Assembly: GCA_032595675.1 (NCBI GenBank)
Contig: JAVQMD010000001.1
Location: forward strand, 124,001-188,000
DNA: 64,000 bases
Direction of reading: 5' to 3'
Origin: Candidatus Electrothrix rattekaaiensis
Lineage (GTDB): Bacteria > Desulfobacterota > Desulfobulbia > Desulfobulbales > Desulfobulbaceae
In this document: in pieces, positions 9,129 through 53,904 of the stretch
Position numbering within the stretch: the first letter of the stretch is position 1
Layout of the letters: the number at the start of each line of letters is the position of its first letter
Notes under the pieces: model-generated
The model's database searches: none
What the model was told of the DNA's origin: nothing
Seen by the model: only the letters and a program-made list of their open reading frames with translations
Made by a program: the position numbers and the translations under genes

Positions 9129-11054
9129 ATGGCAGCAGATGCACACTCCTTGGCCCCTGAAGTCGTGGTTGAGTTTTTTGCCAACATCATGCCCTTTAAA
9201 GAGCTTGATCATGAAACTCTTCATGGTATGGCGCGGCATGTTAAGGTTGATTTTTTCCCAAAAGGGACGCGGCTCTTTCATGCCCATGAAACAGAAATAT
9301 CCCATCTTTTGTTTATTCAACAGGGCGGAGTAAAATCCTTTATTATCGACGATGAGGGTGAGGTCACCCTCAAGGATTATCGGGGCGAGGGCGATTATAT
9401 CGGTGCTCTCAGCATTATCCGGGGGACCAAAGCCAGTCTTGACGTGGAAACCGTTGAGGACACCTTCTGTTTTCTTCTGCCCAAAGCGGTCTTTCTCGAC
9501 CTGATCAATACCCAGCCCGGTTTCTCCCAGTATTACCTGAAAAGCTTCTCTGAAAAGTTTGTCGGCACAGCCTATGCCGAGCTGCGTCGCCACAAAATGA
9601 CCCGCCGGGGCGATGAAAATCTTTATCTGTTTTCTATGCAGGTGGGAGATATCGTCAAGCAGCCTCTTCGTAAAACCTCGGCTGACAGCACTATTCAGCA
9701 GGCGGCGCAGGAGATGGCAAAACACCGCGTGGCCTCCCTGCTCATTCATCAACCCGGCCTTCCTGACGAGATTATCGGCATTATCACGGACCGTGATTTA
9801 AGCTGTAAGGTGCTCGCGCCAGGGCTTGATTATAATGAGCCGGTTCGTTGCATCATGTCCTCACCTGTTGCCACGGTCCTCTCCCAGTCAACCTGTTTTG
9901 ACGCTCTGCTCAAGATGATGTCCAGCTCCATCCATCATCTTGCTGTTGAACGACGGGGAAAGATCATCGGGATCATCACCTCCCATGATATCACTCTGAT
10001 TCAGGGAATATCGCCGTATTCTCTGTTTAAGGAGGTCGGCAAGCAGCAAACCATTGTTGGCCTCTATCCCCTGTCGAAAAAAATCCCGGAAATGATCCGT
10101 AACCTGATTAAGGAAGGGGCTAAACCGGGCAATATTTCCCGGATGATTTCTATTCTTAATGATCATATCCTAGAGCGGCTACTGACGCTGCTGGAAGAGG
10201 AAATGGGGCCTCCTCCGGTTCCGTATTGCTGGCTTCTCATGGGTTCTGAAGGGAGACGGGAGCAGACCTTTAAAACTGATCAGGACAACGCAATTATTTA
10301 TGCGGACCCAAAAAACGAGCAGCAAGGCAGGGATGCGGAAGAATATTTTACCTGCTTTGCCCGTAAGGCGATAGATCACTTGGTGGAATGCGGTTATCCG
10401 CTGTGTCCGGGAGATATCATGGCGGTCAATCCGAAATGGTGCCAACCGCTTTCTGTCTGGAGGGGCTATTTTGCAGACTGGGTCGCTTCGCCTGATCCGC
10501 AGGAAATCCTCAATGCTACTATTTTCTTTGATTTTCGGGCCGGATTCGGGAAAGCAGCCTTGGCTGATGAACTGCGTCAGCAGCTGAACGAGCTGACGGA
10601 ACGGCAGGAGCTGTACCTGCTCCATCTTGCCAACCAATGTCTAGCTGGCAGAACGCCGCTCTCTTTTTTCAGAAACTTCATTGTGGAAAAAAACGGTGAG
10701 CATAAGAATAAATTAGATATCAAGCACCAAGGCCTGACCCCCTTTGTTAATTTTGCCCGGATACTGGCTCTCAGGAACGGGGTGCGGGAGACCAATACCC
10801 TGGCCCGTCTGCACGTCCTTACGCAGGAAAAAATTCTTGATGAATCCCTCTGGGCCAAGGCTGTTGATGCCTATGAGATGCAAATGCAGCTTCGTATTAT
10901 CCATCAGCTGAACCAGATAGAAGCTGACATTCAGCCGGATAACTATATTGCCCCGGATGAGCTGTCAGAGCTGGAAAAACGGATGCTCCGAGATGCCTTT
11001 GAAGTGATTGACCGGTTGCACGGTGTCTTAAAAACAATGTTTCCCACCCCCTGA
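9129..11054 (+). CDS. cNMP-binding/CBS/DUF294 nucleotidyltransferase-like protein
   Basis: A 641-residue signalling protein. A cyclic-nucleotide-binding domain (about 15-140) is followed by a CBS pair (about 170-290), then a DUF294 nucleotidyltransferase-like domain with GSEGRRE (372-378) and DQD (384-386), and a DUF294 C-terminal domain (about 490-635). The middle domain resembles GlnD uridylyltransferases. Target and activity are not established for the family. The gene is repeatedly found beside a DEDDh exonuclease and the DUF4212/symporter pair, as here, hinting at control of sodium-coupled uptake. It ends 2 bp before the next gene. Confidence 0.87.
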   Translation: MAADAHSLAPEVVVEFFANIMPFKELDHETLHGMARHVKVDFFPKGTRLFHAHETEISHLLFIQQGGVKSFIIDDEGEVTLKDYRGEGDYIGALSIIRGTKASLDVETVEDTFCFLLPKAVFLDLINTQPGFSQYYLKSFSEKFVGTAYAELRRHKMTRRGDENLYLFSMQVGDIVKQPLRKTSADSTIQQAAQEMAKHRVASLLIHQPGLPDEIIGIITDRDLSCKVLAPGLDYNEPVRCIMSSPVATVLSQSTCFDALLKMMSSSIHHLAVERRGKIIGIITSHDITLIQGISPYSLFKEVGKQQTIVGLYPLSKKIPEMIRNLIKEGAKPGNISRMISILNDHILERLLTLLEEEMGPPPVPYCWLLMGSEGRREQTFKTDQDNAIIYADPKNEQQGRDAEEYFTCFARKAIDHLVECGYPLCPGDIMAVNPKWCQPLSVWRGYFADWVASPDPQEILNATIFFDFRAGFGKAALADELRQQLNELTERQELYLLHLANQCLAGRTPLSFFRNFIVEKNGEHKNKLDIKHQGLTPFVNFARILALRNGVRETNTLARLHVLTQEKILDESLWAKAVDAYEMQMQLRIIHQLNQIEADIQPDNYIAPDELSELEKRMLRDAFEVIDRLHGVLKTMFPTP

Positions 11055-11056
11055 TC

Positions 11057-11770
11057 ATGCTTTCCTTTCTCAAGCCCCTCAGAAAGATACTTTCTCTGGA
11101 ACCTCCGCACCCTGTTCTACACAGAAACAGAAAGCTATTTGCTGATTTTAAGCAGGGATCCCCCCTGAATGACTATACCTTTGTGGTCTGCGACACCGAA
11201 CTCACCGGTCTGAATAAACGCAAAGACGAGATTATCTCCATCGGTGCTGTTCGTATAGTTAATTTACAGATTCAGCTTGATCAGACTTTTCATCGCTATA
11301 TCCGCCCAGCGAATATCAATCCTAATGAGGCAACCCTTATCCATCGGATTACGCCGGAAGAATTAAAAAAGGCAGACAGTGTTCAGGATGTACTGCCCGA
11401 GTTTATTGAATTTTGCGATAACAGTTTGATAGTCGGTCATTTTGTCGGGTTAGACATGCATTTTCTCAATAAAACGTCCCGTCAGGTTCTGGGAGGGACC
11501 CTGTCAAATCCCGGGATTGATACTATGCGACTCGCCCGCAGGTTCAAGGATAGCGGAAAGACAGACCATTACGGACATCATGACCACGCCTCGTCGTATA
11601 CCCTTGATGCGCTCGCCAAAGAATTCAACCTCCCTGTTTTCAAACCCCATGACGCGTTAGAAGATGCCCTGCAAACAGCGTATCTTTTTTTATACCTCCT
11701 GAAAAAATTTAAAGTTGGTGGCATTAATTCCTTAAAAGAATTGTACCGAGCCGGGAGAATTCGTGCCTGA
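11057..11770 (+). CDS. DEDDh 3'-5' exonuclease (PolC/DnaQ-like)
   Basis: A 237-residue exonuclease with all DEDDh acidic residues: Asp46/Glu48 in DTELTGL (usual DTETTGL), Asp133 in GHFVGLDMHFL, and His198/Asp203 in PHDALEDA. An amphipathic N-terminal ~40 residues precede the fold. It starts 2 bp after the DUF294 gene, so the two form an operon. Its substrate in this context is unknown. It is not necessarily the replicative proofreading subunit. Confidence 0.87.
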   Translation: MLSFLKPLRKILSLEPPHPVLHRNRKLFADFKQGSPLNDYTFVVCDTELTGLNKRKDEIISIGAVRIVNLQIQLDQTFHRYIRPANINPNEATLIHRITPEELKKADSVQDVLPEFIEFCDNSLIVGHFVGLDMHFLNKTSRQVLGGTLSNPGIDTMRLARRFKDSGKTDHYGHHDHASSYTLDALAKEFNLPVFKPHDALEDALQTAYLFLYLLKKFKVGGINSLKELYRAGRIRA

Positions 11771-36172: not shown

Positions 36173-37063
36173 ATGTATTTTCAAGATATTATCGCAGCGT
36201 TGAATAGCTACTGGGCCTCTGCCGGTTGCGTTGTTATGCAGCCCTATGATATGGAAGTCGGTGCCGGAACCTTTCACCCGGCCACCCTACTCAAGGCTCT
36301 GGGGCCGGAACCCTGGAAGGCCGCTTATGTGCAGCCCTCCCGCCGTCCCACTGATGGGCGTTACGGTGAGAATCCCAACCGTCTGCAACATTATTATCAG
36401 TATCAGGTGGTGATTAAACCTTCGCCGAACAATATCCAGGAGATGTATCTGGAGAGCCTGAAGCAATTTGGCCTCAACCTGCTGGAGCATGATATCCGCT
36501 TTGTCGAGGATGACTGGGAATCACCCACCCTTGGGGCCTGGGGCCTGGGTTGGGAGGTCTGGCTTGACGGTATGGAAATCACTCAGTTCACTTATTTCCA
36601 GCAGGCCGGTTCTATTGATCTCAAGCCGATTACTGTGGAGATTACCTATGGCCTGGAGCGCATTGCCATGTATCTCCAAGAAAAGGAGTCGGTCTATGAT
36701 ATTCAGTGGAACGATGAGGTGACCTACGGGGAGATCTTCCTTCAGGCAGAAAAAGAGTTCTCAGCCTTTAACTTTGAAGAGGCCAAGGTGGATGATCTGA
36801 TCACCAGCTTTGATAACTATGAGCGGGAGGCCCTGAAGTTGGTGGAAAAAGATTTGATCCGTCCGGCCTATGATTACTGCCTCAAATGCTCCCATACCTT
36901 TAACCTGCTGGATGCGCGTAAGGCGATCTCTGTTGCCGAGCGAACTAGGTATATCGGACGTATCCGTAATATTGCTCGTCAGGTTGCTCGACATTATGTG
37001 GATCAGCGCGAGGCAATGGGTTGGCCTATGTTGAAGGAAAAGGAAGAACTGCTATGTGGGTAG
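36173..37063 (+). CDS. glyQ: Glycyl-tRNA synthetase alpha subunit
   Basis: A 296-residue catalytic subunit of the alpha2beta2 enzyme that charges tRNA-Gly. [40 protein letters not shown] and EITYGLERI are nearly invariant family segments. ATG 36173 is chosen because homologues start there and AAGGAAGGAG precedes it. The beta-subunit gene glyS, normally the next gene, is not downstream. Instead the start of a Septu-like ATPase overlaps the last codons by 10 bp. Confidence 0.95.
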
Positions 37064-38376
37064 AAGAATTAACCCTAGAGAATATTCGATGTTTTGAGAA
37101 AGTTACGTTACGTTTTGCTAAGAAAGGAAAGCCGTATAGGTGGATAACTCTACTCGGTGAGAATGGCGGGGGGAAGAGTACTACTGTTCAAACGCTGGCT
37201 TTACTTTTGGCAGGCCCAGAAGGGGCACAGAAATTATTACCTCGTCCGGTTGGCTGGTTGAGAGATGAAAATCAGTATGGAAAGCTTTCTATAAGAATTC
37301 ATCAGGGAGCAAATGATCCAGGACAACATGGAGAGAAAAAAATTACAAGTGTTTTTGGCTACTCTTATTTTGTTACAGGAAATAAGCCGTTAACTATTAG
37401 AAATAAAAAATATACAGAGCCTACAATTGTTGAGAATCCTGATAAACGATTAACATGGTTGCGACAGAATGCTCTGACCTCAAAAGGTGAGGGCTGGTTT
37501 TCTGTTGGATACGGGGCCTTTCGGAGATTGACCAGATCAAGTCAAATTATCGTTCCTTCTTTGGAACCACAGGCTCGATTCAGCAACTTCATCACTCAAT
37601 TTGATGAAGACCAGCCTTTAGCAGCTTTTGAGCAATGGATGGTTTATCTTGATTATCGCATTGCTAAAGAGAAAGACCCTGAGGCTGAACGTCAGAAAGA
37701 GCTAGGGATATTGGCTATTAATAAAGTACTTCCCGATGATGTATCCTTTCATTCGGTTACAGCAGAAGGTAGGATTTTATTTGATATCGGTGGGATGAAA
37801 GTGCCGACAATTGCGTTGAGCGACGGCTACCGTAGTGTTCTTGCCTTGGCAGGAGATATTGTATGGAGGCTTTTGCTGTCTTACCCCGAAAGCAATGACC
37901 CTTTGATGGAGGAAGGTGTTGTCCTGATAGATGAGTTGGATATTCATCTGCATCCGATCTGGCAACGGGATATTGCTCTTTGGTTGCAGGAACAATTTCC
38001 CAATATTCAATTTATTGTTGCAACGCATAGCCCTTTAGTTGCTTCAGGAGCAGGAGAAGATGCATTGACGTATCGTTTTTTCTTTCAAGATGGAACGAGT
38101 TCCGTGGAACAAATTAAAAATATAGCAGCAATGAATGTTGATCGTATTTTAGAAAGTGCTGCTTTTGGCCTTGTGTCTCCGTATTCTCCACAAACCCAAG
38201 AAAAGATAGATAGATACGACACGATTGCACGCAAAAGACAGCGGAGCAAGCAAGAGGAAGAGGAAATGCAGCTCCTGTTGCCGTTTATGAAAACTGCTCG
38301 CCCCGTTGGAGGCCCACCGGAACCGGGATCACTTGAAAGTAAAATTGACCAATATCTTGACAAAAAACTGTCATGA
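37054..38376 (+). CDS. ptuA: PtuA-like AAA ATPase (Septu-type defence)
   Basis: A 440-residue ABC/SMC-type ATPase. It has Walker [10 protein letters not shown] (35-43), Walker B VVLIDELD, an adjacent HLHP, and the H-loop ATHSP. A partner HNH protein overlaps its stop by 4 bp (ATGA). ATPase + HNH pairs of this kind form the Septu anti-phage system and also occur in some retrons, but no reverse transcriptase is present. The start ATG lies inside glyQ's last codons. It is AT-richer than glyQ, suggesting transfer. It is somewhat shorter than typical PtuA. Confidence 0.8.
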
Positions 38377-39023
38377 TAGCTCTTCAACGGGCAGACCAGC
38401 CGAAAATTCTTGAAAGAAAGGCGGTGGAATGGAGAGAGAAGTTGTTATCAGCGACAACCACAAAGCAACGTCGTAACGCAAAATCAAAGTATCGGCATAA
38501 AGATATTAAACATGCCTTACGTGCCATGTGTCACGATAAGTGTGCTTATTGTGAAAGCAAGGTTACTCATGTGGATCATGGCGATATTGAACATTATCGT
38601 CCCAAGAGTAAATTCCCGGAATTGACATTTACGTGGTCGAATTTACTTTTGGCCTGTGGGGTGTGCAATGGGACCAAATATAAGGGGGATAAGTTTCCAG
38701 AAGAGGAGCAGGATGGCCCTCTTGTTCACCCTTGTGAGGATGATCCCTCACAGCATTTTGCTTTTCATTATGAACCGCAGGCGGGTATTGCCAGTATATA
38801 TGGCATTACTCCGCGAGGTGAGACAACAGAGAGAATTTTGGGTCTTAATCGGCATGAGTTACGGGCATATCGTTCCGGGCAAATAGCCAAGCTGTATACA
38901 TTGGCCCAATTGGCTGATTCGGACCCTGAAGCTGCTGCTCTTTTCCAGGAAGCGACAGAAGATTCGGCTGAATATTCTGCATTTGCACGAGTTATAAAGA
39001 GAGAGTCGGAGCACAAGAAGTGA
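38373..39023 (+). CDS. ptuB: PtuB-like HNH endonuclease
   Basis: A 216-residue HNH nuclease. It has a zinc knuckle CAYC (57-60) and CGVC (95-98), the HNH core DIEHYRPKS (His74) and Asn90 in WSNLL. It matches the family of HNH proteins that partner an AAA ATPase. It would be the effector that cuts nucleic acid when the ATPase is triggered by phage, by analogy to Septu. It is translationally coupled to ptuA. Confidence 0.8.
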   Translation: MIALQRADQPKILERKAVEWREKLLSATTTKQRRNAKSKYRHKDIKHALRAMCHDKCAYCESKVTHVDHGDIEHYRPKSKFPELTFTWSNLLLACGVCNGTKYKGDKFPEEEQDGPLVHPCEDDPSQHFAFHYEPQAGIASIYGITPRGETTERILGLNRHELRAYRSGQIAKLYTLAQLADSDPEAAALFQEATEDSAEYSAFARVIKRESEHKK

Positions 39024-44514: not shown

Positions 44515-45387
44515 TCAACGCAGCTCAAAGCGCACAGGGACTTTCACCCACATTGACTGTGCCCTGCCCCCGACCGTGCCCGGAGAAAATCGCCAAGCCC
44601 GCACAGCCTTCAGGGCCGCCTTATCAAGAATCGAATGGCCGCTGCTGGCAAAGATTCGTAATTTTTCCACCCTGCCGTTTCTATCAATTTTGGCCTCAAT
44701 AGTGACAAGCCCTTCAAGCCCGCGTCGTTTGGCCATGCGGGGGTATTCCGGCGGCGGATTGCTTTGGTACAGCGGAGCCGCTTCCCGGACAACACCGGTG
44801 CTCGCTTGCGGTGCCGGTCTGGTCGTTGTTTTGACCGGGGCAGATGAAACCGCCTGCCTCGTGATCGGAAGAGTACGGCGAACGGGTTGTGTGCGTCGCC
44901 TGATCGGCTGCTGATACTGCGGTTTAGGCTTTTTTATCGGTTGAAGAAGAGCCAGGGGCTTTATCGCCTGCCGGATAACCGGGGCAAGTTTCGGCAGCGG
45001 CTGAGGAACAGCGGAGATTTTTCTTCCGGGCTTCAGCATGAGCGGGCGGGCCGCTTGATGCTGCACCCGAGTGATTTTGGGCAGAGCCGGTGCTTTCTGG
45101 ACGATCTTCTTTAGCGGTTCGGGCTTTGGCTTGGGTTTAGGCAATAAGGGGCGGAGCGGCTGATGCTCTGTCGCGGTGATCTTGGGGAGAGCCTGCACTT
45201 CCTGAACAATCTTTTTCAGCGGAGGAGGAGGCGGGGGAAGCCGCTTCAGGCTGACGGAAATTTTTTGGGGCAGGGGTTTGGGACGCTCTGTTTCAGGCAG
45301 CGGCATTCGCCAGGAAGAAAGTAACGCCCCATGTAAGGCGAGTGTGAGAAGAGCTGCGGGCACCATCCGTTGCATTGCTTCGTTCAC
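44515..45387 (-). CDS. tonB: TonB family protein
   Basis: 290 residues. An N-terminal inner-membrane anchor (about 8-27) and a long Pro/Lys-rich periplasmic spacer with repeated PLxPKPKPxP/LPKI motifs precede a C-terminal TonB domain (about 212-290; YPRMAKRRGLEGLV...RFSPG). It passes proton-motive energy to outer-membrane receptors, here most likely the BtuB encoded upstream. The spacer has internal repeats (KKIVQEVQALPKIT / KKIVQKAPALPKIT). It overlaps exbD by 4 bp. Confidence 0.92.
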   Translation of the reverse strand: MNEAMQRMVPAALLTLALHGALLSSWRMPLPETERPKPLPQKISVSLKRLPPPPPPLKKIVQEVQALPKITATEHQPLRPLLPKPKPKPEPLKKIVQKAPALPKITRVQHQAARPLMLKPGRKISAVPQPLPKLAPVIRQAIKPLALLQPIKKPKPQYQQPIRRRTQPVRRTLPITRQAVSSAPVKTTTRPAPQASTGVVREAAPLYQSNPPPEYPRMAKRRGLEGLVTIEAKIDRNGRVEKLRIFASSGHSILDKAALKAVRAWRFSPGTVGGRAQSMWVKVPVRFELR

Positions 45388-45812
45388 GGTGTTGCGGTCT
45401 CCGTCTCGGCCTGAAGAGATATACTGGTGAGGCCAGCCTGCTTGACCCTGTCCAGTACCTGAAAAAGCCCCTGATAGGGAACCGATTTATCGGCAAAGAT
45501 CTGCACATTAGGGTTTTTATCCTTACTTGCCGCCTTTTTTTTCTCAAGCAGCAGTTCCAGCTGCGGGAGTTCCACCGACTCCTCATCAACAAAGAGCTTC
45601 AGGCCCCCGTTCGCAGCCTGGATGGAAATCCCGATTGCCTCTGCAGTTTCCAAGCCAGCAGTGCCGGACTCAGGCAGGTCCACCTGTTGTCCGTGATGCA
45701 CGGCCATGGACAGCATGGCATAGATGAAAAAGACAAGCAGCAGGAAAACAATGTCGATCAGGGGCAACATTTCGACACGGGGCGGTGCCATACTGCGGTT
45801 TCTCAGTTTCAT
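45384..45812 (-). CDS. exbD: ExbD/TolR biopolymer transporter
   Basis: 142 residues with a single N-terminal helix (about 17-38) containing the essential Asp in LPLIDIVFLLLVFF, and a periplasmic domain with VQIFADKSVPYQGLFQVLDRVKQAG typical of ExbD. Works with ExbB and TonB. The stop overlaps the tonB start (ATGA). Confidence 0.93.
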   Translation of the reverse strand: MKLRNRSMAPPRVEMLPLIDIVFLLLVFFIYAMLSMAVHHGQQVDLPESGTAGLETAEAIGISIQAANGGLKLFVDEESVELPQLELLLEKKKAASKDKNPNVQIFADKSVPYQGLFQVLDRVKQAGLTSISLQAETETATP

Positions 45813-45941: not shown

Positions 45942-48044
45942 CTAAAAGGACAGGTTGTCGGTTTTAATCAGCAGCGGTCTGTTCTTTTCTATATCGCCCA
46001 AGGCCCCGTTGAACAATGCGCCAATCCCTTTTGCCAGTACCGGAGGGAGAAGATCCGTTGTAGGCCCGATATCAATATCCGCCGATTCAGACAACACGGC
46101 CTTTTTACCGGCAATATCCGCTGCAACAGCCTCACACCAGAGATCAATCCCTTCAGTATTCCGTACCAGCCCTTTGGCATAATCATCGCTGACCGCCATG
46201 ATCGCGGTCAGAAAGCCCGCATATTTTGGTTCCAGCAGCAGCTGTTCAACCCGCTGGCGCAGGATTTTTGCATCGCCCTTTTTCCCGACTTTTTCGATAA
46301 AATGCCGGCTCAGAACACCCAGATCTATCTTGCGCTCTTTGAGCCGTTGAAACACGGAGCGTTTGCTGACTAGGCCGTTTTGCAGATGCATGGCCTGCTG
46401 TACCCCGGCATAGACAGCTCGGGCGATCAGCTCGCCCATCTTGGTGTGTCCGCCGCTGGAATCAATGGGCAGCCCGGCCCCTTCAAGGACAATGATATTA
46501 TCCGTACCTGTGCCGGTGGCCTGATTGTTGCGCGGTGAAACGCCGGAGCGGATATCCATGTCCTGGAGAGCCGCCGACTTGGCTTCTGTTGCGGTGATGA
46601 GGGCACGGGTCATGGCTCTGGGGCTTAATTGCATATTACTCAGTAGCAGGATGTTGATAGTGCCGGGTTTTTTCTTTTTGATTTTTTCTCTGTCCAGGCT
46701 GTCCGGTTCATAAAACAGGCCCTCATCCACGCTCATCCGCATGGCGTTGCCCGTGACCCCGGCAGTGACCAAGGCGATGACTTCCATGTCTTGATACGAT
46801 TTTTTGACCACAGCCAGATTGTCCATGTCCGCACCGGTGAAGAGCATTGCCGTGCTCTCGGCATTGAGGCCCAGCACTTTTCTGACGGATTCATTCAGAG
46901 TGGCCAGTCCCTGCTCATGGCCCAGCCCCCAGGAAGGCGGCGGGAAATAATGGTTGGCCACGGTGGTGATGCCCTCACGCTGTCCCTCCAAGGTGGAGAC
47001 CACCCGCATGGGGTTGTTCAAATGGAGAAGGACAGTTTTATTGCGGAAATCCTTGATATCGCTCTCCACGATTTCGGCCTTGTCCACATAGGGTACCTCG
47101 ACTTGGACCGGCTTCCTGTTCACCACTTCTTCCGGGAGGACGAAGTTCTTGGGTTCGCTGAATTCATCCGCATAGATACGGGCGGCGAGCCAAGAGACAA
47201 AAGATCCCTGATGAGTTGCGGCCCGGCAGGTGAGGTCGCAGTGAAAGAAGAAGATCCGGTGGTTGCGAACAGCATCCACCTCATTCCAGCCCGGCTGATC
47301 CAGGATGGTCAGGGCCTTGAGGTCGCCGCCGCAGGCGTACAGCACCTGGGGGTTGAATTTCTGCCATTCCTCCAGGCTCACGGAGATAATGTTGCCGGTT
47401 TTGCCGAATTCTGGAGCAATGGCCCCGGCCGCCCGGATGTAATCGTTCTGAAAGGAGTCATCCCCGGGTGCCATAAGCGTATCCCGTCCCATAAAACGCA
47501 TCACCCGTTGTCGTTCCTCCACGGGTATCCTAGCTGTCTTGTCAGCAATCACGGCCAGTTGTCGTTGCTCTTCCGCAATGATCCGCGCAGCCCTGTCTTC
47601 ACAGTTGAACATCCGCCCGAGGAGATCAAGCTGGGCAAAGCTCTGTTCCAGCGAAGACGGTGAGAGCTCCACCAAGGTGGCTTTGCCCGCAAAGGGTTGA
47701 ATTAGTTCCTTGTGCAGATCAGCGTAAAAGATCAGATCCGGTTCCAGCTTCGCTACTTTGTCCAAATCAGGCTTTAAAAAACCGCCGATGATCTCTTTGC
47801 CCGCCGCTTCTGGGGGAAGAACCGAATGATAGGTGATGCCTTTCACCCGGTCCCCGGCTCCGATGCGGAGCAGCATTTCCGTGACCGAAGGCACGAAGGA
47901 GACCACCCGTTGCGGAGTCGCTTTGAGGATGATTTCTTTCTCGCCGGAATCTTGAAAACGGAGAGGGAAGTCTGCTCCCCAGGCTGTGCCGGAGAGCAGA
48001 AGAATGAGTATGAGGAGCAGGGTGTTGCATTGTCGTCTTTTCAT
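45942..48044 (-). CDS. Secreted BtuF-CbiZ fusion (B12 binding + adenosylcobinamide amidohydrolase)
   Basis: 700 residues. A signal peptide (MKRRQCNTLLLILILLLSGTAWG) leads a BtuF-like corrinoid-binding domain (about 35-300; RVVSFVPSVTEMLLRIGAGDRV). A CbiZ-type amidohydrolase domain follows (about 335-570; SWGLGHEQGL, VTAGVTGNAMR, GTGTDNIIVL), then a ~130-residue tail of unknown fold (about 570-700). CbiZ cleaves adenosylcobinamide or pseudo-B12 side chains to salvage cobyric acid. Joined to a binding protein, it would trim incomplete corrinoids in the periplasm. It lies between exbB and exbD. Confidence 0.85.
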   Translation of the reverse strand: MKRRQCNTLLLILILLLSGTAWGADFPLRFQDSGEKEIILKATPQRVVSFVPSVTEMLLRIGAGDRVKGITYHSVLPPEAAGKEIIGGFLKPDLDKVAKLEPDLIFYADLHKELIQPFAGKATLVELSPSSLEQSFAQLDLLGRMFNCEDRAARIIAEEQRQLAVIADKTARIPVEERQRVMRFMGRDTLMAPGDDSFQNDYIRAAGAIAPEFGKTGNIISVSLEEWQKFNPQVLYACGGDLKALTILDQPGWNEVDAVRNHRIFFFHCDLTCRAATHQGSFVSWLAARIYADEFSEPKNFVLPEEVVNRKPVQVEVPYVDKAEIVESDIKDFRNKTVLLHLNNPMRVVSTLEGQREGITTVANHYFPPPSWGLGHEQGLATLNESVRKVLGLNAESTAMLFTGADMDNLAVVKKSYQDMEVIALVTAGVTGNAMRMSVDEGLFYEPDSLDREKIKKKKPGTINILLLSNMQLSPRAMTRALITATEAKSAALQDMDIRSGVSPRNNQATGTGTDNIIVLEGAGLPIDSSGGHTKMGELIARAVYAGVQQAMHLQNGLVSKRSVFQRLKERKIDLGVLSRHFIEKVGKKGDAKILRQRVEQLLLEPKYAGFLTAIMAVSDDYAKGLVRNTEGIDLWCEAVAADIAGKKAVLSESADIDIGPTTDLLPPVLAKGIGALFNGALGDIEKNRPLLIKTDNLSF

Positions 48045-48060
48045 GGGGGTACGGATATCT

Positions 48061-48735
48061 CTATTTGTTCATTATGTTCTGTTGCAAGGGGAGGGGCACT
48101 TCCTCTCCCTTGCCGCCTTGATATTTTTCCAACTTTTTAAAGACAACCTCCAGGCTGGTGGCATATTTCTCCATCACATGGACAGCTCTGCTTATCTTGG
48201 TGTTGAAGAAATTATATGGAACCACCGCAATAATAGAGATGGCAAGACCGGCAGCAGTGGTGATGAGGGCCTGTGCAATCCCTCCGGTGACCAGTTTAGG
48301 GTCAGCCATGCCGGTGCCGCTTCCCAACATTTTGAATGAGCTGATAATGCCCAATACGGTTCCAAAGATGCCCAGGAGCGGGGCAATGGTGATCATCGTA
48401 TCCAGCACCGGCATGAAGCGGCTCATACGCTGAAACATCCGGTCTGCCTCGGCTTCCATAGCCTTGCCCATGTCATAGTCCCGATGAACAATGCCCACAG
48501 CAAGCAGGCGAATCACATGGTCTTCGCATCCTGTGGTTTTCTCTTTGATCAACGCCCAATGGCCGCTCTCGGCAAGGACAAGAACCTCGTCCATCAGCTT
48601 TCGGTTCCGTTTTCTCTCAAGATCGATCCAGAACATGGCCCGTTCTATGACCACTGTTCCGACAGCTATGGAACAAAGCAACAGAGGCCACATCACCGGG
48701 CCGCCGTTCAGCAGGATTTGGTAGGCAGGCATCAT
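48061..48735 (-). CDS. exbB: ExbB/TolQ/MotA-type proton channel
   Basis: 224 residues with three membrane helices and the family GTVLGIISSFKML and ALITTAAGLAISI segments. Forms the proton channel that energises TonB together with ExbD. The start overlaps the stop of the upstream binding-protein gene by 4 bp. Confidence 0.92.
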   Translation of the reverse strand: MMPAYQILLNGGPVMWPLLLCSIAVGTVVIERAMFWIDLERKRNRKLMDEVLVLAESGHWALIKEKTTGCEDHVIRLLAVGIVHRDYDMGKAMEAEADRMFQRMSRFMPVLDTMITIAPLLGIFGTVLGIISSFKMLGSGTGMADPKLVTGGIAQALITTAAGLAISIIAVVPYNFFNTKISRAVHVMEKYATSLEVVFKKLEKYQGGKGEEVPLPLQQNIMNK

Positions 48736-49595
48736 CTTGTCGAAGTCAGTTCAGGATGAATAAGAGCGGCCATGGTGGAGAGGGTCTCTGCAAAGGTGGC
48801 CGGGGAAGGGCTGCATGCCAGGTCCGGGCTGACCACATGCACCTGATCATTCTGGACAGCCGCTATGGGAAAGCCCTGCCACTTCTTTTTTTCCTCCTGA
48901 GCAATGCCGGTTTCACTACCCATCATGGCGATGATGATCACCTCGGGGTTTTTCATAAGGATTTTCTCGTAACTGACTGTGCCGTGCTGTTGCTCTTCGA
49001 TGACGTTGACAGCACCGCTCAGGGCAATAAAGTCATGGGTAAAAGAGTCTGGTGCTGCCCCGAAAAGCGGTCGGGAGCCGATTTGCAGAAAGACCTTGGG
49101 TCGGGGGAGTTGCGCCGTGGCAACGGCCACTGCTGCTACTTTTTTTTCAGCCTCCCGCACAACCTGTTCGGCCCGTTCCTCCAGACCGAGAAGCTCGCCG
49201 AGTTGACGGAATTGGGTGCAGATTTCGGCAAAGGAGGCAGACTGCGGAAACTGTTCCACCCGCAGGCCGAGATCGCGGAATTTTTTCAGCTGAACCGGTG
49301 AAGTCAGACCGGTTGCCAAGATGAGATCTGGGCGTAGGCTGAGGATTTTTTCAAGGGAGAACTGCATGACCGAGCCGATCTTTTTCTTGTCTTGAGCCGC
49401 TTCAGGACGGACGCAGTAGCTGGTGTTACCCACCAGCCGGTCTTCAGCACCAAGGAGATAGACGTTCTCTGTGTTGATCGGGCCGAGGGAGATGATCCGC
49501 TGGGGGAAATGGTTCTCTTGCTCTTGGGCCAACCCGGTCAGGGGCAAGGCGCAGGAGAGCAGAGTTATGATAAGAAAAAAGGAGGTTGTATACAT
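48732..49595 (-). CDS. btuF: Periplasmic corrinoid-binding protein (BtuF-like)
   Basis: A 287-residue class III solute-binding protein with a signal peptide (about 1-23) and the two-lobed helical-backbone fold (RIISLGPINTENVYLLGAEDRLVG near 33-56). It probably delivers cobalamin to an inner-membrane importer. The permease BtuC and ATPase BtuD are not in the window. It is the second BtuF-type domain of the locus, besides that fused to CbiZ. Iron-siderophore binding is a less likely alternative, given the context. Confidence 0.8.
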   Translation of the reverse strand: MYTTSFFLIITLLSCALPLTGLAQEQENHFPQRIISLGPINTENVYLLGAEDRLVGNTSYCVRPEAAQDKKKIGSVMQFSLEKILSLRPDLILATGLTSPVQLKKFRDLGLRVEQFPQSASFAEICTQFRQLGELLGLEERAEQVVREAEKKVAAVAVATAQLPRPKVFLQIGSRPLFGAAPDSFTHDFIALSGAVNVIEEQQHGTVSYEKILMKNPEVIIIAMMGSETGIAQEEKKKWQGFPIAAVQNDQVHVVSPDLACSPSPATFAETLSTMAALIHPELTSTR

Positions 49596-49737: not shown

Positions 49738-50643
49738 CTATCGGCTCCAGGCTGCCAGCTGTGAAACTTCAGCCCGCAAACGTGTTAAGGTTTCAGGGGA
49801 GTTGAACAGTTTTCGACATAGCTCGCATTTACTATAGGTTATGATCTCGCGGGCCTTCATACCGGTAAATGATGCAATATTTGTTACCCCCTTGGTTCTG
49901 ATGAAGCTGTACAACGGGTCCGTTTCAGTTTGAGTAAAAAGCTGTTCTATTGAATTGTCGGTCAGGTTCCCAAGGTGAAAAAAATTTGTCTCCGAAAAAT
50001 GGCTTCCTGCATCGCAACAGGCGTACATATCAAGATCTGGAGTAAGATAGGGGTTCATCTCGCAGCAGTTTTCCTGATAATCGGTCAGAATATTTCTGCG
50101 TTCAAAAGAAGCGGCGCGACCTGCATATATGACAGGTTCTGGAAAAAATTTGAGGCCCTGATCCCGCAAAAACTGTTCATATGGATCATCCTCTATGGAA
50201 AAGTCGGTGATAAATGAAATAAAATAATTTAACCCGTTCTTGTGGCAACTGTGTGCTGCATTCAACACATTGTTCCGAGTTACATTTTTCTGGTGCCACC
50301 TTGAGTAACTTAATCTTAATTGGCAAAGCCCATTTTCTTTCAATTCTGAAACAAAACTTTCAGAATCCTTTGCTGTCTTTGCCCAATAACAGTTGGTAAC
50401 AACTCTCGTATATATTCCGACTTGTTTGCATAGTTTCACAAGCTCTGCAATTTCATTGAAATACAGAAACGGTTCACCAGCTGAAAAACTTATTCCGCCA
50501 ACACCTGCTTGGGCCATTTCGACAATTATTTCTTTTGCCGTATTATGATCCATTTTCCTGCAATCAGGGATATCCTCCGCAGCCACGCAGTGCTCGCACT
50601 TGATATTACATCTGGTTGAGTATCCAAAAGCTAATTTACGCAT
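49738..50643 (-). CDS. Radical SAM protein with C-terminal cysteine clusters
   Basis: A 301-residue radical SAM enzyme. The [4Fe-4S] motif CNIKCEHC (Cys12, 16, 19) and a GEP motif (FSAGEPFLYF) are present. C-terminal cysteines (CCEMN, ACCDAG, CELC) resemble a SPASM-like auxiliary cluster domain. The substrate is unknown. A start at ATG 50643 (MRKLAFGYSTRC) is preferred. The frame extends 29 codons further into the PIN remnant on the other strand. It sits between btuB and btuF but is not an obvious B12 gene. Confidence 0.82.
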   Translation of the reverse strand: MRKLAFGYSTRCNIKCEHCVAAEDIPDCRKMDHNTAKEIIVEMAQAGVGGISFSAGEPFLYFNEIAELVKLCKQVGIYTRVVTNCYWAKTAKDSESFVSELKENGLCQLRLSYSRWHQKNVTRNNVLNAAHSCHKNGLNYFISFITDFSIEDDPYEQFLRDQGLKFFPEPVIYAGRAASFERRNILTDYQENCCEMNPYLTPDLDMYACCDAGSHFSETNFFHLGNLTDNSIEQLFTQTETDPLYSFIRTKGVTNIASFTGMKAREIITYSKCELCRKLFNSPETLTRLRAEVSQLAAWSR

Positions 50644-50701
50644 ATTTAGAAATGATCTTCTTATCGCATTATTACGGGAAGGCAGGAGGAAACAGTCCTT
50701 G

Positions 50702-50944
50702 TTTTCCGCAGCCCAAGAAATATTCAGCAAATTTTCCGACCGCTGCTTGGCCTTCGGGGCATCCGAAGCCTCAATCTATGCCGGAATTATTGCCGATGCC
50801 CGTAAAAAAGGAAAAATAATAACCGTGGAAGACGGCCTAATCGCTGCTGTCGCCGTATCCAACGGCTTCAGTTTGGCAACCCGGAATATCAAAGACTTTA
50901 ACAGCATTGCAGAATTACCGTTAATCAATCCCTTTGAAGGGTAA
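50702..50944 (+). pseudogene. 5'-truncated VapC/FitB-type PIN domain remnant
   Basis: About 80 codons that match only the C-terminal half of PIN-domain toxins: SIYAGIIADARKKGK, then VEDGLIAAVAVSNGF with the third acidic residue, ATRNIKDF with the last, and the ending LINPFEG. The N-terminal acidic pair is missing and no antitoxin gene is adjacent. The 5' boundary abuts the radical SAM gene's start, so that gene's arrival may have cut it. Confidence 0.7.
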
Positions 50945-50989: not shown

Positions 50990-53002
50990 TTAATACTCCC
51001 AACGCAAGGTAGCAAAGAAGCCCCGTCCCGGCATGGGATACCCTTTCACATAGGCGTAGTCTTCGTCAAAGAGGTTGTTGATTTCCCCGCGCAGAGTAAA
51101 GGCACCCAGCCGCTCGGCTTCATAAAAACGCCAGGAAGCCGTGAGGTCGGTGACCGTGCTTGCGTCCAGCTCAACCACCGGGGTCGGGTGAACGTCCGAT
51201 TCCCAATTCTCCACATCCTGAGTGCTGGCATAGGCGATATTGAGGCGGTAGGAAATGCCGTCGCCGTTGCCGATTGCCAGCCCGGCAGACATATTTGCGC
51301 CGTTGACATTCAGCAGATCCTCGCCTGTGCTTTCATCCTCATATTGGGTCAGCAAGGTCATGTTGAAATAGGGGCGCACTTCCCATTCCCAGCCTAAGCT
51401 CAGGCCCAGATCATAGGAGAACTCGCCTTCAAAGCCGGACAGGGTGGCATCACCGAGGTTCTTCCAGGTCTTGGACCCGTCCGCCTGATAATCCGTGATG
51501 ATCTTGTCTTCAAAGTCGGTATGAAAATAGGTGAGACCGGCCTTGAAGCCGTTGCGGCTGTAGTCCATGCCGCCTTCGTAGGTGGAGCTTGTTTCAGGGG
51601 CGAGATCGGGATTGCCCACTGTGCGGGTGCCGAAGTTGTCAAAGTCCGCAGCCAACTGATCCGCTGAAGGGATCATAAAGGCCTGGGCATACTGTGCCCG
51701 GAGCTTGAGCTGTTCCGTAACCATCCAGGAAAGACCGACCTTGGGGGTGAAATGATTCGTGTCAATGCTCCGGCCCGCCGGTTCCACAACCTCCACCTCG
51801 TACCAGTCATAGCGCATCCCGACATCAAGGGTCAGGCGTTGCTCGGGAAAGGTTGTTTTGCCGAGGAGAAAGACTGCGGGATTGGTGTAGCTGGTTGTGT
51901 TGGGGGTCCAGGTGTTCTCCACCTCATAGTCCAGCCAGTCAATGCCGCCGGTGAGCCGGGTTTGTCCGAAGGTACCGGTGAGCTGGGCCTGTGTACCCTG
52001 CTGATCGGTTGTATTGGAGGAGACGATACCATCATCCCAGCCGCTCGGGTCGGACCCGGCAGGATCAGACCAGGAATTCTCATCCCTGCCGAAAAACCAA
52101 CGTGCGGTCCACTGCCAGCGATCCGAAGCGGTTGCGCCTGTATAGTTCAGGTCAACGGAATACTTTTCCTTATCCGTGCTGTCGTCCAGATCCTGCTTGC
52201 TGAAGTAACCGGGACTACCGTAGTTATCCAGCTCGGAGCCTGTGAAGATCAGGCCGAGGCGATGCTTGTCGGAAAACGACCAGCCTATGTTCGCACTGAC
52301 GCCGGAGGACGCATCAAAGCCGGTGTTGCCGAACTCGTCGCCGCTCCCAGTTGTATAGGCATCACGGGAGGATCGACTGTAGGAACCTGCGAAGTCGAGC
52401 TTGCCCTCCTTGAAGGTGCCGCCGATGCTGGATTCATAGGCCCCGAAAGAACCACCACTTGCCTCGACAAAGGCGGAATTGCGCTCGGCCTTGCGGGTAA
52501 TAACATTAACCACCCCGCCCATACCGGCTGAACCGTACTGCACTGCTCCGGCACCCCGGACAATCTCAATCCGCTCAACATTCCCGGTCAGCAGCTTGGC
52601 TACATTGCCGGTACCTGCTCGCCGCCCGTCCAGGAGGATCAGGACATGGCCCTGAAGGTCATTGCCGTGGGTGTCGGTACGGAAGCCCCTAAGTCCGATG
52701 GAGGTCAATCCGCCCGGATACTTATGCAAATGACCGATGGATTTCTCTGTCAGCAGATCGCCCACATTACCGGCACCGGACTGTTCAATCTCATCCCGGT
52801 CAATCACGGTGACATTGGCACTGACTTCCTTTTTGTTCTCCGCTGTCCGGGCGGCGGTAACCACCACTTCCTCCATCATGATCCGCTGTTCAGCTCCTAA
52901 ATCCACGGGAGAATTTGCGGCGGAATCCGAGGCAAAAGCCTTTTGTCCTGTCCATATACCGGCCAGCACTAGGCAGACTGAAACCGAATAACACTTCCTC
53001 AT
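50990..53002 (-). CDS. btuB: TonB-dependent receptor, BtuB-like
   Basis: A 670-residue outer-membrane receptor. It has a signal peptide (about 1-25), a TonB-box-like EEVVVTAART, a plug domain (about 50-165; RGAGAVQYGSAGMGGVVNVITRK) and a 22-strand barrel ending in FFATLRWEY with a terminal aromatic residue. The cobalamin riboswitch directly upstream makes B12 the likely ligand. ATG 53002 is chosen for AGAGGAAC just before it and the signal peptide. The open frame upstream reads through the leader terminator. Confidence 0.92.
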   Translation of the reverse strand: MRKCYSVSVCLVLAGIWTGQKAFASDSAANSPVDLGAEQRIMMEEVVVTAARTAENKKEVSANVTVIDRDEIEQSGAGNVGDLLTEKSIGHLHKYPGGLTSIGLRGFRTDTHGNDLQGHVLILLDGRRAGTGNVAKLLTGNVERIEIVRGAGAVQYGSAGMGGVVNVITRKAERNSAFVEASGGSFGAYESSIGGTFKEGKLDFAGSYSRSSRDAYTTGSGDEFGNTGFDASSGVSANIGWSFSDKHRLGLIFTGSELDNYGSPGYFSKQDLDDSTDKEKYSVDLNYTGATASDRWQWTARWFFGRDENSWSDPAGSDPSGWDDGIVSSNTTDQQGTQAQLTGTFGQTRLTGGIDWLDYEVENTWTPNTTSYTNPAVFLLGKTTFPEQRLTLDVGMRYDWYEVEVVEPAGRSIDTNHFTPKVGLSWMVTEQLKLRAQYAQAFMIPSADQLAADFDNFGTRTVGNPDLAPETSSTYEGGMDYSRNGFKAGLTYFHTDFEDKIITDYQADGSKTWKNLGDATLSGFEGEFSYDLGLSLGWEWEVRPYFNMTLLTQYEDESTGEDLLNVNGANMSAGLAIGNGDGISYRLNIAYASTQDVENWESDVHPTPVVELDASTVTDLTASWRFYEAERLGAFTLRGEINNLFDEDYAYVKGYPMPGRGFFATLRWEY

Positions 53003-53051
53003 AACTGTTCCTCTTCGTCTTGTTCGTCCGAGGAATGGCTCTGTGAAGAGC

Positions 53052-53095
53052 AAAAAAAATCCCCGGACCAATTGTATAAACATTGATCCGGGGAT
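53052..53095 (-). terminator. Leader terminator of the B12 riboswitch
   Basis: On the minus strand, a long stem formed by 53095-53081 and 53074-53059 (ATCCCCGGATCAATG paired with CAATTGGTCCGGGGAT) is followed by eight T. It lies between the riboswitch and btuB, about 50 bp before the start codon, so it is the probable off-switch. Confidence 0.88.
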
Positions 53096-53193
53096 GCCCT
53101 GATTTTCCACGAATAACTCTGCGTATCCCTCCCTTGTCCACGGGGAGCGAGACGATTCTGTCATGCTTTTTCTCCGGCACGGCAGCTTAATAA

Positions 53194-53355
53194 ATTTCAG
53201 ACAGGTCTTCTGACTTCCGGATCATCCTCCTGCTGCGCCTTCCCGCATGGAATCATGCAGTGGCTTTATGCAGCGTTTGTCCCCGGTTACAGCGGCGGGC
53301 CCGTCCCGGATTTACACCGGGTTCCCTCTTACGCTCGGTTAGGAGCATCTGAAAT
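53194..53355 (-). ncRNA. Cobalamin riboswitch aptamer
   Basis: Read on the minus strand, the closing stem ATTTCAGA (53355-53348) pairs with TCTGAAAT (53201-53194). Inside lie the conserved AAGAGGGAACCCGGTGTAAATCCGGG, CCCGCCGCTGTAACCGGGGA and GCCACTG elements of the adenosylcobalamin class, plus the final GGAAGTCAGAAGACCTG. With the terminator at 53052-53095 it should shut down btuB when B12 is plentiful. Confidence 0.95.
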
Positions 53356-53904
53356 GCGGGGCAAGCCTACCTGAAAAAAAACAAAAGGTCAAGTGTGTTG
53401 GTGTGCCCGTTTTGAGTGAGCCTATTTTGGTTTGTGTTTGAACAAGTGCCTTGCCAGGAAAAGTTTTCTCTTGGCTTTGACGATCCTCGGAATCCCTGGG
53501 TGATTCGGATTGAATGGAATTTTAGGGGAAAGAGTATTTTTATGATCCGATATTTGGACATGATAATGTTTTCAGATGATTATATTCTTTTTTGGATATG
53601 CAGGGGGGCTGTGAAGGAGTATCAATAGCTCGAAAGCAATCCCTGACGAGCAGATTGACGGTATATTTGTTTTGAAAAAACAAGAAAGATCATTTATTAT
53701 TATGAGTTTGTTGTGATGAAACGGTACAGGGCTTGCATTACTTCTATATATGATTATATCGTTATTCGTCACTTCAAAAGGGCACTGTATATTGTGCTTT
53801 TTGAGTACGTTGGAAATAATAGCTACCCAGTGCCGATGACAGGTTACGAGCAAGGATTGTTGCTTTCAGAGGCTCTGTGAATTCTTCCCATAAAAGGCGG
53901 TTAG
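53356..53904. other. Gene-less stretch between riboswitch and pilZ gene
   Basis: 549 bp, AT-rich. It should contain the btuB promoter near its left end (minus strand) and the promoter of the PilZ gene at its right end. A 93-codon frame on the minus strand (53572-53853) has no supporting features. Nothing else seen. Confidence 0.5.

Follow-up and report, generated by a model that had tools for sequence, protein, structure and literature searches.

CbiZ-dependent cobamide remodelling is usually placed in the cytoplasm, and there the enzyme has to distinguish foreign cofactors from the cell's own. The cytoplasmic CbiZ proteins of bacteria such as Dehalococcoides and Paracoccus are each annotated as a stand-alone protein (255 and 228 amino acids, respectively), and their N-termini, by reading, lack a signal sequence. 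In the BtuD-CbiZ type fusion of Bacilli (489 amino acids in Cytobacillus), CbiZ is joined to a B12-transport-type protein and encoded in a transport operon; in the bifunctional CbiS of the Methanopyrus kandleri type, it is followed by a CobZ-like domain, and the activities of CbiS and CobZ were reportedly described by Woodson and by Zayas in 2006. Here, we present a computational analysis of a gene located in a 64,000-nucleotide stretch of the genome of Candidatus Electrothrix rattekaaiensis (contig JAVQMD010000001.1, positions 124,001 to 188,000; hereafter, the window). The gene encodes a fusion of a BtuF-type binding domain, a CbiZ domain, and a CobZ-like domain behind a signal-like N-terminus. 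We conclude, with a probability of roughly 0.6, that this protein is an exported corrinoid salvage enzyme, which captures corrinoids and removes their nucleotide loop in the periplasm, followed by import via a second binding protein, BtuF2, and a distant BtuCD. The fusion resembles the Cytobacillus protein in joining CbiZ to a transport-type partner in a transport operon; however, the partner in Cytobacillus is a cytoplasmic ATP-binding cassette (ABC) ATPase (residues 1-254), and no export signal or CobZ-like tail was noted. Similarly, the order of CbiZ and CobZ-like domains is as in CbiS, but the window fusion has a signal peptide and a BtuF domain in front, and the acidic CobZ motifs are gone. 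CbiZ and CbiS are already known. Within the accessible portions of the open-licence literature, neither an exported nor a BtuF-fused CbiZ was found to be described; the architecture may well be recorded in domain databases.

The open reading frame (ORF) at 45942-48044 on the minus strand encodes 700 amino acids with the following parts:

45942..48044, minus strand: BtuF-CbiZ-(degenerate CobZ-like) fusion, 700 amino acids (Pfam, NCBIfam, structure model)
47973..48044, minus strand: predicted signal peptide, residues 1-24 (sequence, hydropathy, model helix 2-21; cleavage point by reading)
47145..47972, minus strand: BtuF-type binding domain, residues 25-300 (Pfam, fold, three invariant cysteines)
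46401..47021, minus strand: predicted CbiZ amidohydrolase domain, residues 342-548 (Pfam, conserved positions)
45975..46376, minus strand: CobZ/PgpA-like C-terminal domain, residues 557-690, lacking the acidic CobZ motifs (VIA, hhalign, motif counts)

Pfam identified Peripla_BP_2 (PF01497) in residues 47-267 (E 2.2e-20; 73.6 bits vs cut-off 27.5) and CbiZ (PF01955) in residues 342-548 (E 1.9e-53; 181.8 bits vs gathering cut-off 27). The structure model of the whole fusion had a mean predicted local distance difference test (pLDDT) score of 83.4, and a sequence search of the PDB with the whole fusion returned matches to the BtuF part only. A CbiZ search of 257 genomes of the class gave a match in 64 genomes and, after removal of overlap repeats (L001, L022-L031), 40 different ORFs that carry both domains, one from each of 40 genomes, including the window; the protein of G208 (L062), which lacks the N-terminal half, is not among the 40. 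All 40 fusions were matched by BLAST with the C-terminal domain of the window protein. A scan of named genomes retained the best 80 of 382 relatives, and the taxonomic edge lies outside its view; all 80 loci encode the fusion in one ORF, and exclusion of 17 ORFs whose CbiZ core was identical to one already collected left 64 new ORFs from 63 loci. This recurrence across relatives confirms that the BtuF-CbiZ fusion with an export signal-like N-terminus is real and not the product of chance. The first-pass annotation, made from the sequence of the window alone, had described such a fusion inside a TonB/ExbBD cluster and proposed a search for it in relatives; Pfam, the neighbouring genes, and the 40 ORFs of the class together with the 64 further ones bear this description out. 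Alignments of 29 (A1) and 33 (A2) of the 40 fusions were used.

The N-terminus of the window fusion, MKRRQCNTLLLILILLLSGTAWG/AD, has three lysine or arginine residues ahead of a hydrophobic stretch, an A-x-A/G-type end, and no lipobox. Lysine or arginine residues precede the hydrophobic stretch in 40 of 40 fusions, none of which has a lipobox, and in 39 of them an 11-residue window ahead of the BtuF domain reaches a hydropathy of at least 2.0 (1.88 in the remaining one). Among the fusions of the named-genome scan, 60 of 64 have a hydrophobic N-terminus; of the other four, three start at the boundary of the retrieved sequence, and the start assigned to the fourth (L125) may be wrong. Together, these patterns support the earlier suggestion that the fusion is exported.

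To define the CbiZ core, we used nine reference proteins without a BtuF domain (from Dehalococcoides, Cytobacillus, Leptospira, and Paracoccus, one CbiS-like protein, and four from relatives). The window fusion agrees at 25 of the 26 columns that are conserved in at least eight of the nine, and 24 of the 26, including the GTIN, TE, ATGTGTD, and GxH blocks, are kept in 39 or 40 of the 40 fusions. The first-pass annotation had named loss of catalytic residues as an outcome that would undo its reading; in the alignment, the conserved CbiZ residues are kept. These data support that the CbiZ core of the window fusion is intact, and an amidohydrolase function is predicted. The core residues are shared with the cytoplasmic enzymes of Dehalococcoides and Paracoccus, and the reaction is presumably alike.

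The C-terminal domain had been described as having no clear family, and a prediction of its structure had been proposed. Modelled alone, the domain had a pLDDT of 84.9 and a predicted template modelling (pTM) score of 0.76. Among 139 chains aligned with VIA, three stood apart: 1rfz (Z 11.7, root mean square deviation [rmsd] 3.4, 133 residues aligned), 1tlq (YpjQ; Z 11.6), and 1y9i (Z 11.3), with the next at 2.9. These three are chains of the PgpA/YpjQ superfamily, which also includes CobZ. The CbiS model NF038002 aligned to fusion residues 337-629 along model positions 2-265 of 335 with 89.1 bits, below the equivalog cut-off of 250; no protein in 297 genomes of the phylum exceeded this cut-off, and the CbiS-like protein L169 of a relative in the phylum reached 173.5 bits along positions 3-334 of 335, also under the cut-off. 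The CbiS model ran into the C-terminal domain in 15 of 33 C-termini (best E 1.5e-4; window, 0.015), with about 15 residues of the CbiZ end still included in these alignments. By hhalign, the 33 fusion tails matched the CobZ part of L169 with E 1.8e-10 when the CbiZ end was included and with E 5.9e-7 after it was trimmed; the trimmed score of 43.5 compares with a maximum of 19.6 in shuffles (none of 200 as high). The gap in Z scores, the CbiS model running into the domain, and the trimmed profile match are the basis on which we relate the domain to CobZ/PgpA. Three acidic motifs, DExxG, xDxxKP, and xDDxxxG, are common to L169 and the PgpA-type proteins L167 and L168 and are found in 2, 0, and 0 of the 33 fusion C-termini, respectively; we infer that they represent catalytic residues. 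Based on the likeness in fold and profile and the lost motifs, the tail most likely descends from CobZ and has lost the phosphatase site, and the whole fusion is probably an exported CbiS-like protein with a dead CobZ domain.

Three observations argue against this assignment of the C-terminal domain. Foldseek alone placed 1y9i first at E 0.96 and 1rfz eighth; Z scores below about 13 in VIA may arise by chance for helical bundles; and a PgpA protein from a relative gave no alignment (probability 0.05). Because of the gap to the fourth VIA row and the sequence evidence, a chance helical match is unlikely in this case. Other searches were negative. The CobZ model TIGR03161 (cut-off 152.5) matched one of the 33 C-termini at E 0.21 and not that of the window, and it matched no protein of the window genome at E 0.001; Pfam gave nothing consistent for the 33 C-termini; the best match of the domain in a PDB sequence search had E 0.011 and was unrelated; and plasmid records searched with the CobZ part of L169 gave no match. 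Since fold and profile comparisons agree on CobZ/PgpA, the domain is not an orphan, and the earlier description of it as having no clear family is not supported: VIA, hhalign, and the motif counts point to a degenerate CobZ-like domain. A separate CbiZ type of about 400 amino acids (L002-L021), apparently without a signal sequence, has its own conserved, helical-looking tail; this tail matched the fusion tail with a probability of 91.6, CbiZ end included, and did not match the CobZ part of L169 (probability 1.3).

The fusion gene is part of a minus-strand cluster in the order riboswitch, TonB receptor, radical S-adenosylmethionine (SAM) protein, BtuF2, ExbB, fusion, ExbD, and TonB:

53183..53367, minus strand: cobalamin riboswitch aptamer RF00174, leading the cluster (cmscan, 120.8 bits, E 9.3e-30)
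50990..53164, minus strand: TonB-dependent outer-membrane receptor, probably BtuB-like (Pfam Plug and barrel)
49738..50730, minus strand: radical SAM protein (best NCBIfam model YydG epimerase, under cut-off)
48732..49595, minus strand: BtuF2, second corrinoid-type substrate-binding protein (Peripla_BP_2, 114.9 bits)
48061..48735, minus strand: ExbB (MotA_ExbB, 107.3 bits vs 22.9)
45384..45812, minus strand: ExbD (Pfam, 95.7 bits vs 25.4)
44515..45387, minus strand: TonB (TonB_C, 92.2 bits vs 24.6)

By reading, the true start of the receptor is probably internal to its ORF, at MRKCYSVSV. The ExbB and BtuF2 genes overlap by 4 bases, as do the ExbD and TonB genes, and 16 bases separate the ExbB gene from the fusion gene. 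ExbB and ExbD score below their NCBIfam equivalog cut-offs. Within 11 kb on the same strand in the 40 loci, the fusion is accompanied by a receptor in 34, BtuF2 in 25, TonB in 19, ExbB in 16, and ExbD in 14; any of TonB, ExbB, and ExbD is present in 24, CobN in 15, and BtuC or BtuD in 12. Because many contigs are short, these counts are lower bounds. The earlier claim that the cluster has its own Ton trio and a second BtuF is supported by Pfam and by the neighbours in relatives. Upstream of 34 of the 40 fusion genes, a cobalamin riboswitch is present on the same strand at a distance of up to 7 kb, a count that includes a rescan of nine loci. Of the six others, L044, L051, L053, and L059 end less than 2 kb upstream, L050 has a riboswitch that overlaps the start of an over-long ORF by about 11 bases, and L049 has none nearer than 13.5 kb. 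L041 carries a CbiA-type gene, and L038 carries a gene for a pterin-binding protein just under the Pfam cut-off.

The fused BtuF domain and BtuF2 are paralogues (30% identity over 265 residues), and the fused domain has the fold of heme- and siderophore-binding proteins (Z 25.4 to 2r7a, rmsd 2.5, 244 residues aligned). Both proteins fall below the BtuF equivalog PRK03379 (cut-off 234), the fused domain with 27.1 bits and BtuF2 with 102.4 bits. Three cysteines of the fused domain, C238, C269, and C273, are invariant in 29 of 29 aligned fusions, and BtuF2 keeps only the third. In the model, C238 closes the strand 234-238 and C269 follows the strand 264-267, positions that we presume to be near the ligand site of this protein class; the cysteines could possibly provide a cobalt ligand, a disulfide, or a metal site. 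In five ORFs (L068, L051, L131, L144, and L161), a BtuF2 (40-63% identity to that of the window) is fused behind the CobZ-like domain; in L131, L144, and L161, genes for BtuC and BtuD share the strand of the fusion.

The window genome has one full-length FecCD permease, with a second, weak match at 34.7 bits. The best NCBIfam models for the permease are BtuC and the best model for the ATPase encoded behind it is a corrinoid transporter, both under cut-off. A second cobalamin riboswitch and a CbiK gene precede this BtuCD locus by about 5 kb. Between CbiK and BtuC, at L079 4688-8173, are two genes that read as an AAA ATPase and a subtilisin-like protease and may have been inserted as a pair. The genome encodes CbiB and no CbiZ other than the fusion. 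It also has two ThiC-family genes, one beside ThiE, which likely encodes the thiamine enzyme, and one that immediately follows a cobalamin riboswitch. A B12-controlled second ThiC is typical of the Bza-type lower-ligand makers, and the riboswitch-led paralogue suggests that the cell makes its own lower ligand. Based on CbiB, BtuCD, and the ThiC paralogue, we suggest that the cell may take up cobyric acid and convert it to its own cobamide; the fusion would then have a purpose. Two opposed cobalamin riboswitches about 140 bases apart are located at approximately 9173-9660 of L080 (G000:C2:79172-79659), and the one on the plus strand directly precedes the second ThiC-family gene at 9659-11080.

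From the computed domains, signal-like N-terminus, CbiZ core, CobZ-like fold with lost motifs, riboswitch, and gene company, we infer the location of the fusion, its catalysis and substrate, the order of events, and the role of the C-terminal domain as follows. When B12 is scarce, the riboswitch would permit expression of the cluster. Powered by the cluster's TonB-ExbB-ExbD proteins, the outer-membrane receptor would bring foreign cobamides or cobinamide into the periplasm, where the BtuF half of the fusion would capture the corrinoid and pass it to the tethered CbiZ half. CbiZ would then hydrolyse the amide linkage between the corrin ring and the aminopropanol side of the nucleotide loop, yielding cobyric acid, which BtuF2 would hand to the BtuCD encoded elsewhere in the genome. 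Inside the cell, CbiB and later enzymes would reassemble the cell's native cobamide, possibly using a benzimidazole made by the cell itself. The CobZ-like domain, its phosphatase activity probably lost, may hold the nucleotide tail or be a structural or dimer part. Cleavage outside the cytoplasm would keep the amidohydrolase off the cell's own finished coenzyme, and lower-ligand selectivity would therefore not be needed to avoid a futile cycle.

Several points weigh against this proposal. The CbiZ enzymes studied so far reportedly used adenosylated substrates, and periplasmic corrinoids are usually without the adenosyl group; adenosylation is, therefore, the main chemical doubt on catalysis by an exported CbiZ. 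The main biological doubt is the substrate. The receptor scores higher with the NCBIfam TonB-hemin model (222 bits) than with the TonB-B12 model (171 bits), both below cut-off, and the substrate range could therefore be wider than corrinoids. With regard to import, the window cluster has no BtuC or BtuD, and because the AAA ATPase and protease-like genes lie between, control by the second riboswitch may not extend to BtuC. For the ThiC paralogue led by a riboswitch, the score exceeds the ThiC cut-off and falls short of that of BzaB (499 vs 700 bits), and its role is unsure. Within the window genus, CbiZ was found in two of eight sampled genomes, arguing that its function is dispensable. With regard to export, a crude [AVSG]-x-A pattern near the end of the hydrophobic stretch was detected in only 24 of the 40 fusions. 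As judged from sequence, the possibility raised earlier that the signal acts as a cytoplasmic membrane anchor did not come true, the N-terminus looking cleavable, although the crude pattern is limited to these 24. Finally, in seven of the 40 fusions, a 19-residue stretch in the mature part reaches a hydropathy of 1.6 (maximum 1.83); such stretches are probably buried, although membrane contact there is possible.

One alternative to a periplasmic salvage enzyme, which we regard as unlikely, is that the system strips corrinoids or other tetrapyrroles for cobalt, CbiZ first cutting off the nucleotide loop in the periplasm and an HmuS-like chelatase then taking the metal, in the way HmuS treats heme. 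A CobN-like gene is found near the fusion on the same strand in 15 of the 40 loci (L032, L034, L036, L038, L045, L049, L050, L055-L058, L064, L065, L067, and L071) and in 14 of the 64 further ones (best 80 of 382 relatives); most of these loci also have DUF2149, DUF2162, and an extra MotA/ExbB-like gene, and the 15 are mostly behind cobalamin riboswitches. The 15 CobN-like proteins all have a C-terminal hydrophobic helix, and 12 have a hydrophobic N-terminus, the start of the other three being doubtful. According to the accessible part of the report on HmuS, this protein has a single predicted membrane helix at each end (PMC12583661). In some relatives, the CobN-like proteins, most of them with hydrophobic ends, and their MotA/ExbB-like, DUF2149, and DUF2162 neighbours may be akin to the HmuS heme de-chelatase system of Bacteroidota; they differ in lying behind cobalamin riboswitches. 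It is possible that the CobN loci encode an HmuS-like system for corrinoids, and the resemblance of the receptor to hemin receptors fits with cobalt stripping. However, the window genome has no CobN-family protein, making this explanation unlikely there; moreover, CobN could equally insert metal, and some loci (L041) carry CbiA, which is a corrinoid builder. In Dehalobacter, an operon with two CbiZ genes, transporters, and CobN rose on average 46-fold on corrinoid starvation, as given in the accessible part of PMC4285132, so the company of CbiZ and CobN is not confined to the phylum.

We consider it similarly improbable that the CbiZ domain binds without cutting and that the fusion, with high affinity for corrinoids, acts as a store or shuttle that supplies BtuF2. 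The loss of the acidic motifs from the CobZ-like domain indicates that parts of the fusion can decay while being kept, but the retention of 25 of 26 CbiZ positions in the window, and of 24 of 26 in nearly all fusions, is unexpected for a dead enzyme. That the N-terminal sequence does not serve export and the enzyme is cytoplasmic, as the missing crude cleavage pattern in 16 of 40 fusions might indicate, is very improbable, because a substrate-binding domain follows directly behind the N-terminus, BtuF2 is fused to the same chain in five relatives, and lysine or arginine residues precede the hydrophobic stretch in every fusion, which would place the domains outside whether the signal is cleaved or an anchor.

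Returning to the exported salvage enzyme, this reading can be extended to the Desulfobacterota in general, although we put this forward only tentatively and consider it doubtful as a whole: an exported CbiZ would cut the nucleotide loop in the periplasm, the dead CobZ domain would read the tail, an HmuS-like chelatase with a proton-channel partner would handle the metal in many species, and only the stripped ring or its parts would be imported. If true, periplasmic corrinoid processing would be the B12 counterpart of periplasmic heme stripping. An exported CbiZ would solve the problem of telling foreign from own cofactor by place rather than by selectivity, and it would provide a context for CobN-like membrane proteins of unclear role. 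It would also alter the interpretation of genomes with "CbiZ" when predicting whose B12 is usable by whom; the accessible part of PMC6461909 gives 1041 species with CbiZ as a marker of remodelling.

The record titles in the named-genome scan are mostly Deltaproteobacteria or Desulfobacterota, with a few others (Mariprofundaceae, Pseudomonadota, and plain "bacterium") among the best 80 of 382. Isolates with the fusion include Desulfogranum marinum DSM 2058, Desulfofustis glycolicus DSM 9705, strain NaphS2, Desulfosarcina alkanivorans, D. widdelii, and Desulfonema magnum; the nearest among the relatives covered is Desulfobulbaceae bacterium S24.Bin023, which is 74% identical. A quick tree built from 66 CbiZ domains places the 40 fusions on one side of a branch with weak support (70), and a starred group (98) comprises the fusions, L169, and the Dehalococcoides CbiZ; several outgroup branches are long, and their placement is unsure. 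In 36 of the 40 fusion genomes, several of which are incomplete, no second CbiZ was among the matches.

The radical SAM gene at 49738-50730 was rejected as a working part of the system. It is a same-strand neighbour of the fusion in one of the 40 loci, the window itself, and in L063 a relative of it is located on the opposite strand 5 kb away; it is probably not part of the system. A 114-amino-acid ORF on the plus strand overlaps the start of this gene and reads like the end of a PIN-domain toxin, without a Pfam match; together, the two ORFs (49738-50944) between the receptor and BtuF2 look like an insertion. Elsewhere in the window, positions 37021-39023 on the plus strand encode an AAA ATPase and an HNH protein that form an anti-phage system of the Septu (PtuA/PtuB) type (PADLOC PtuA, E 3.8e-185; PtuB, E 7.6e-64).

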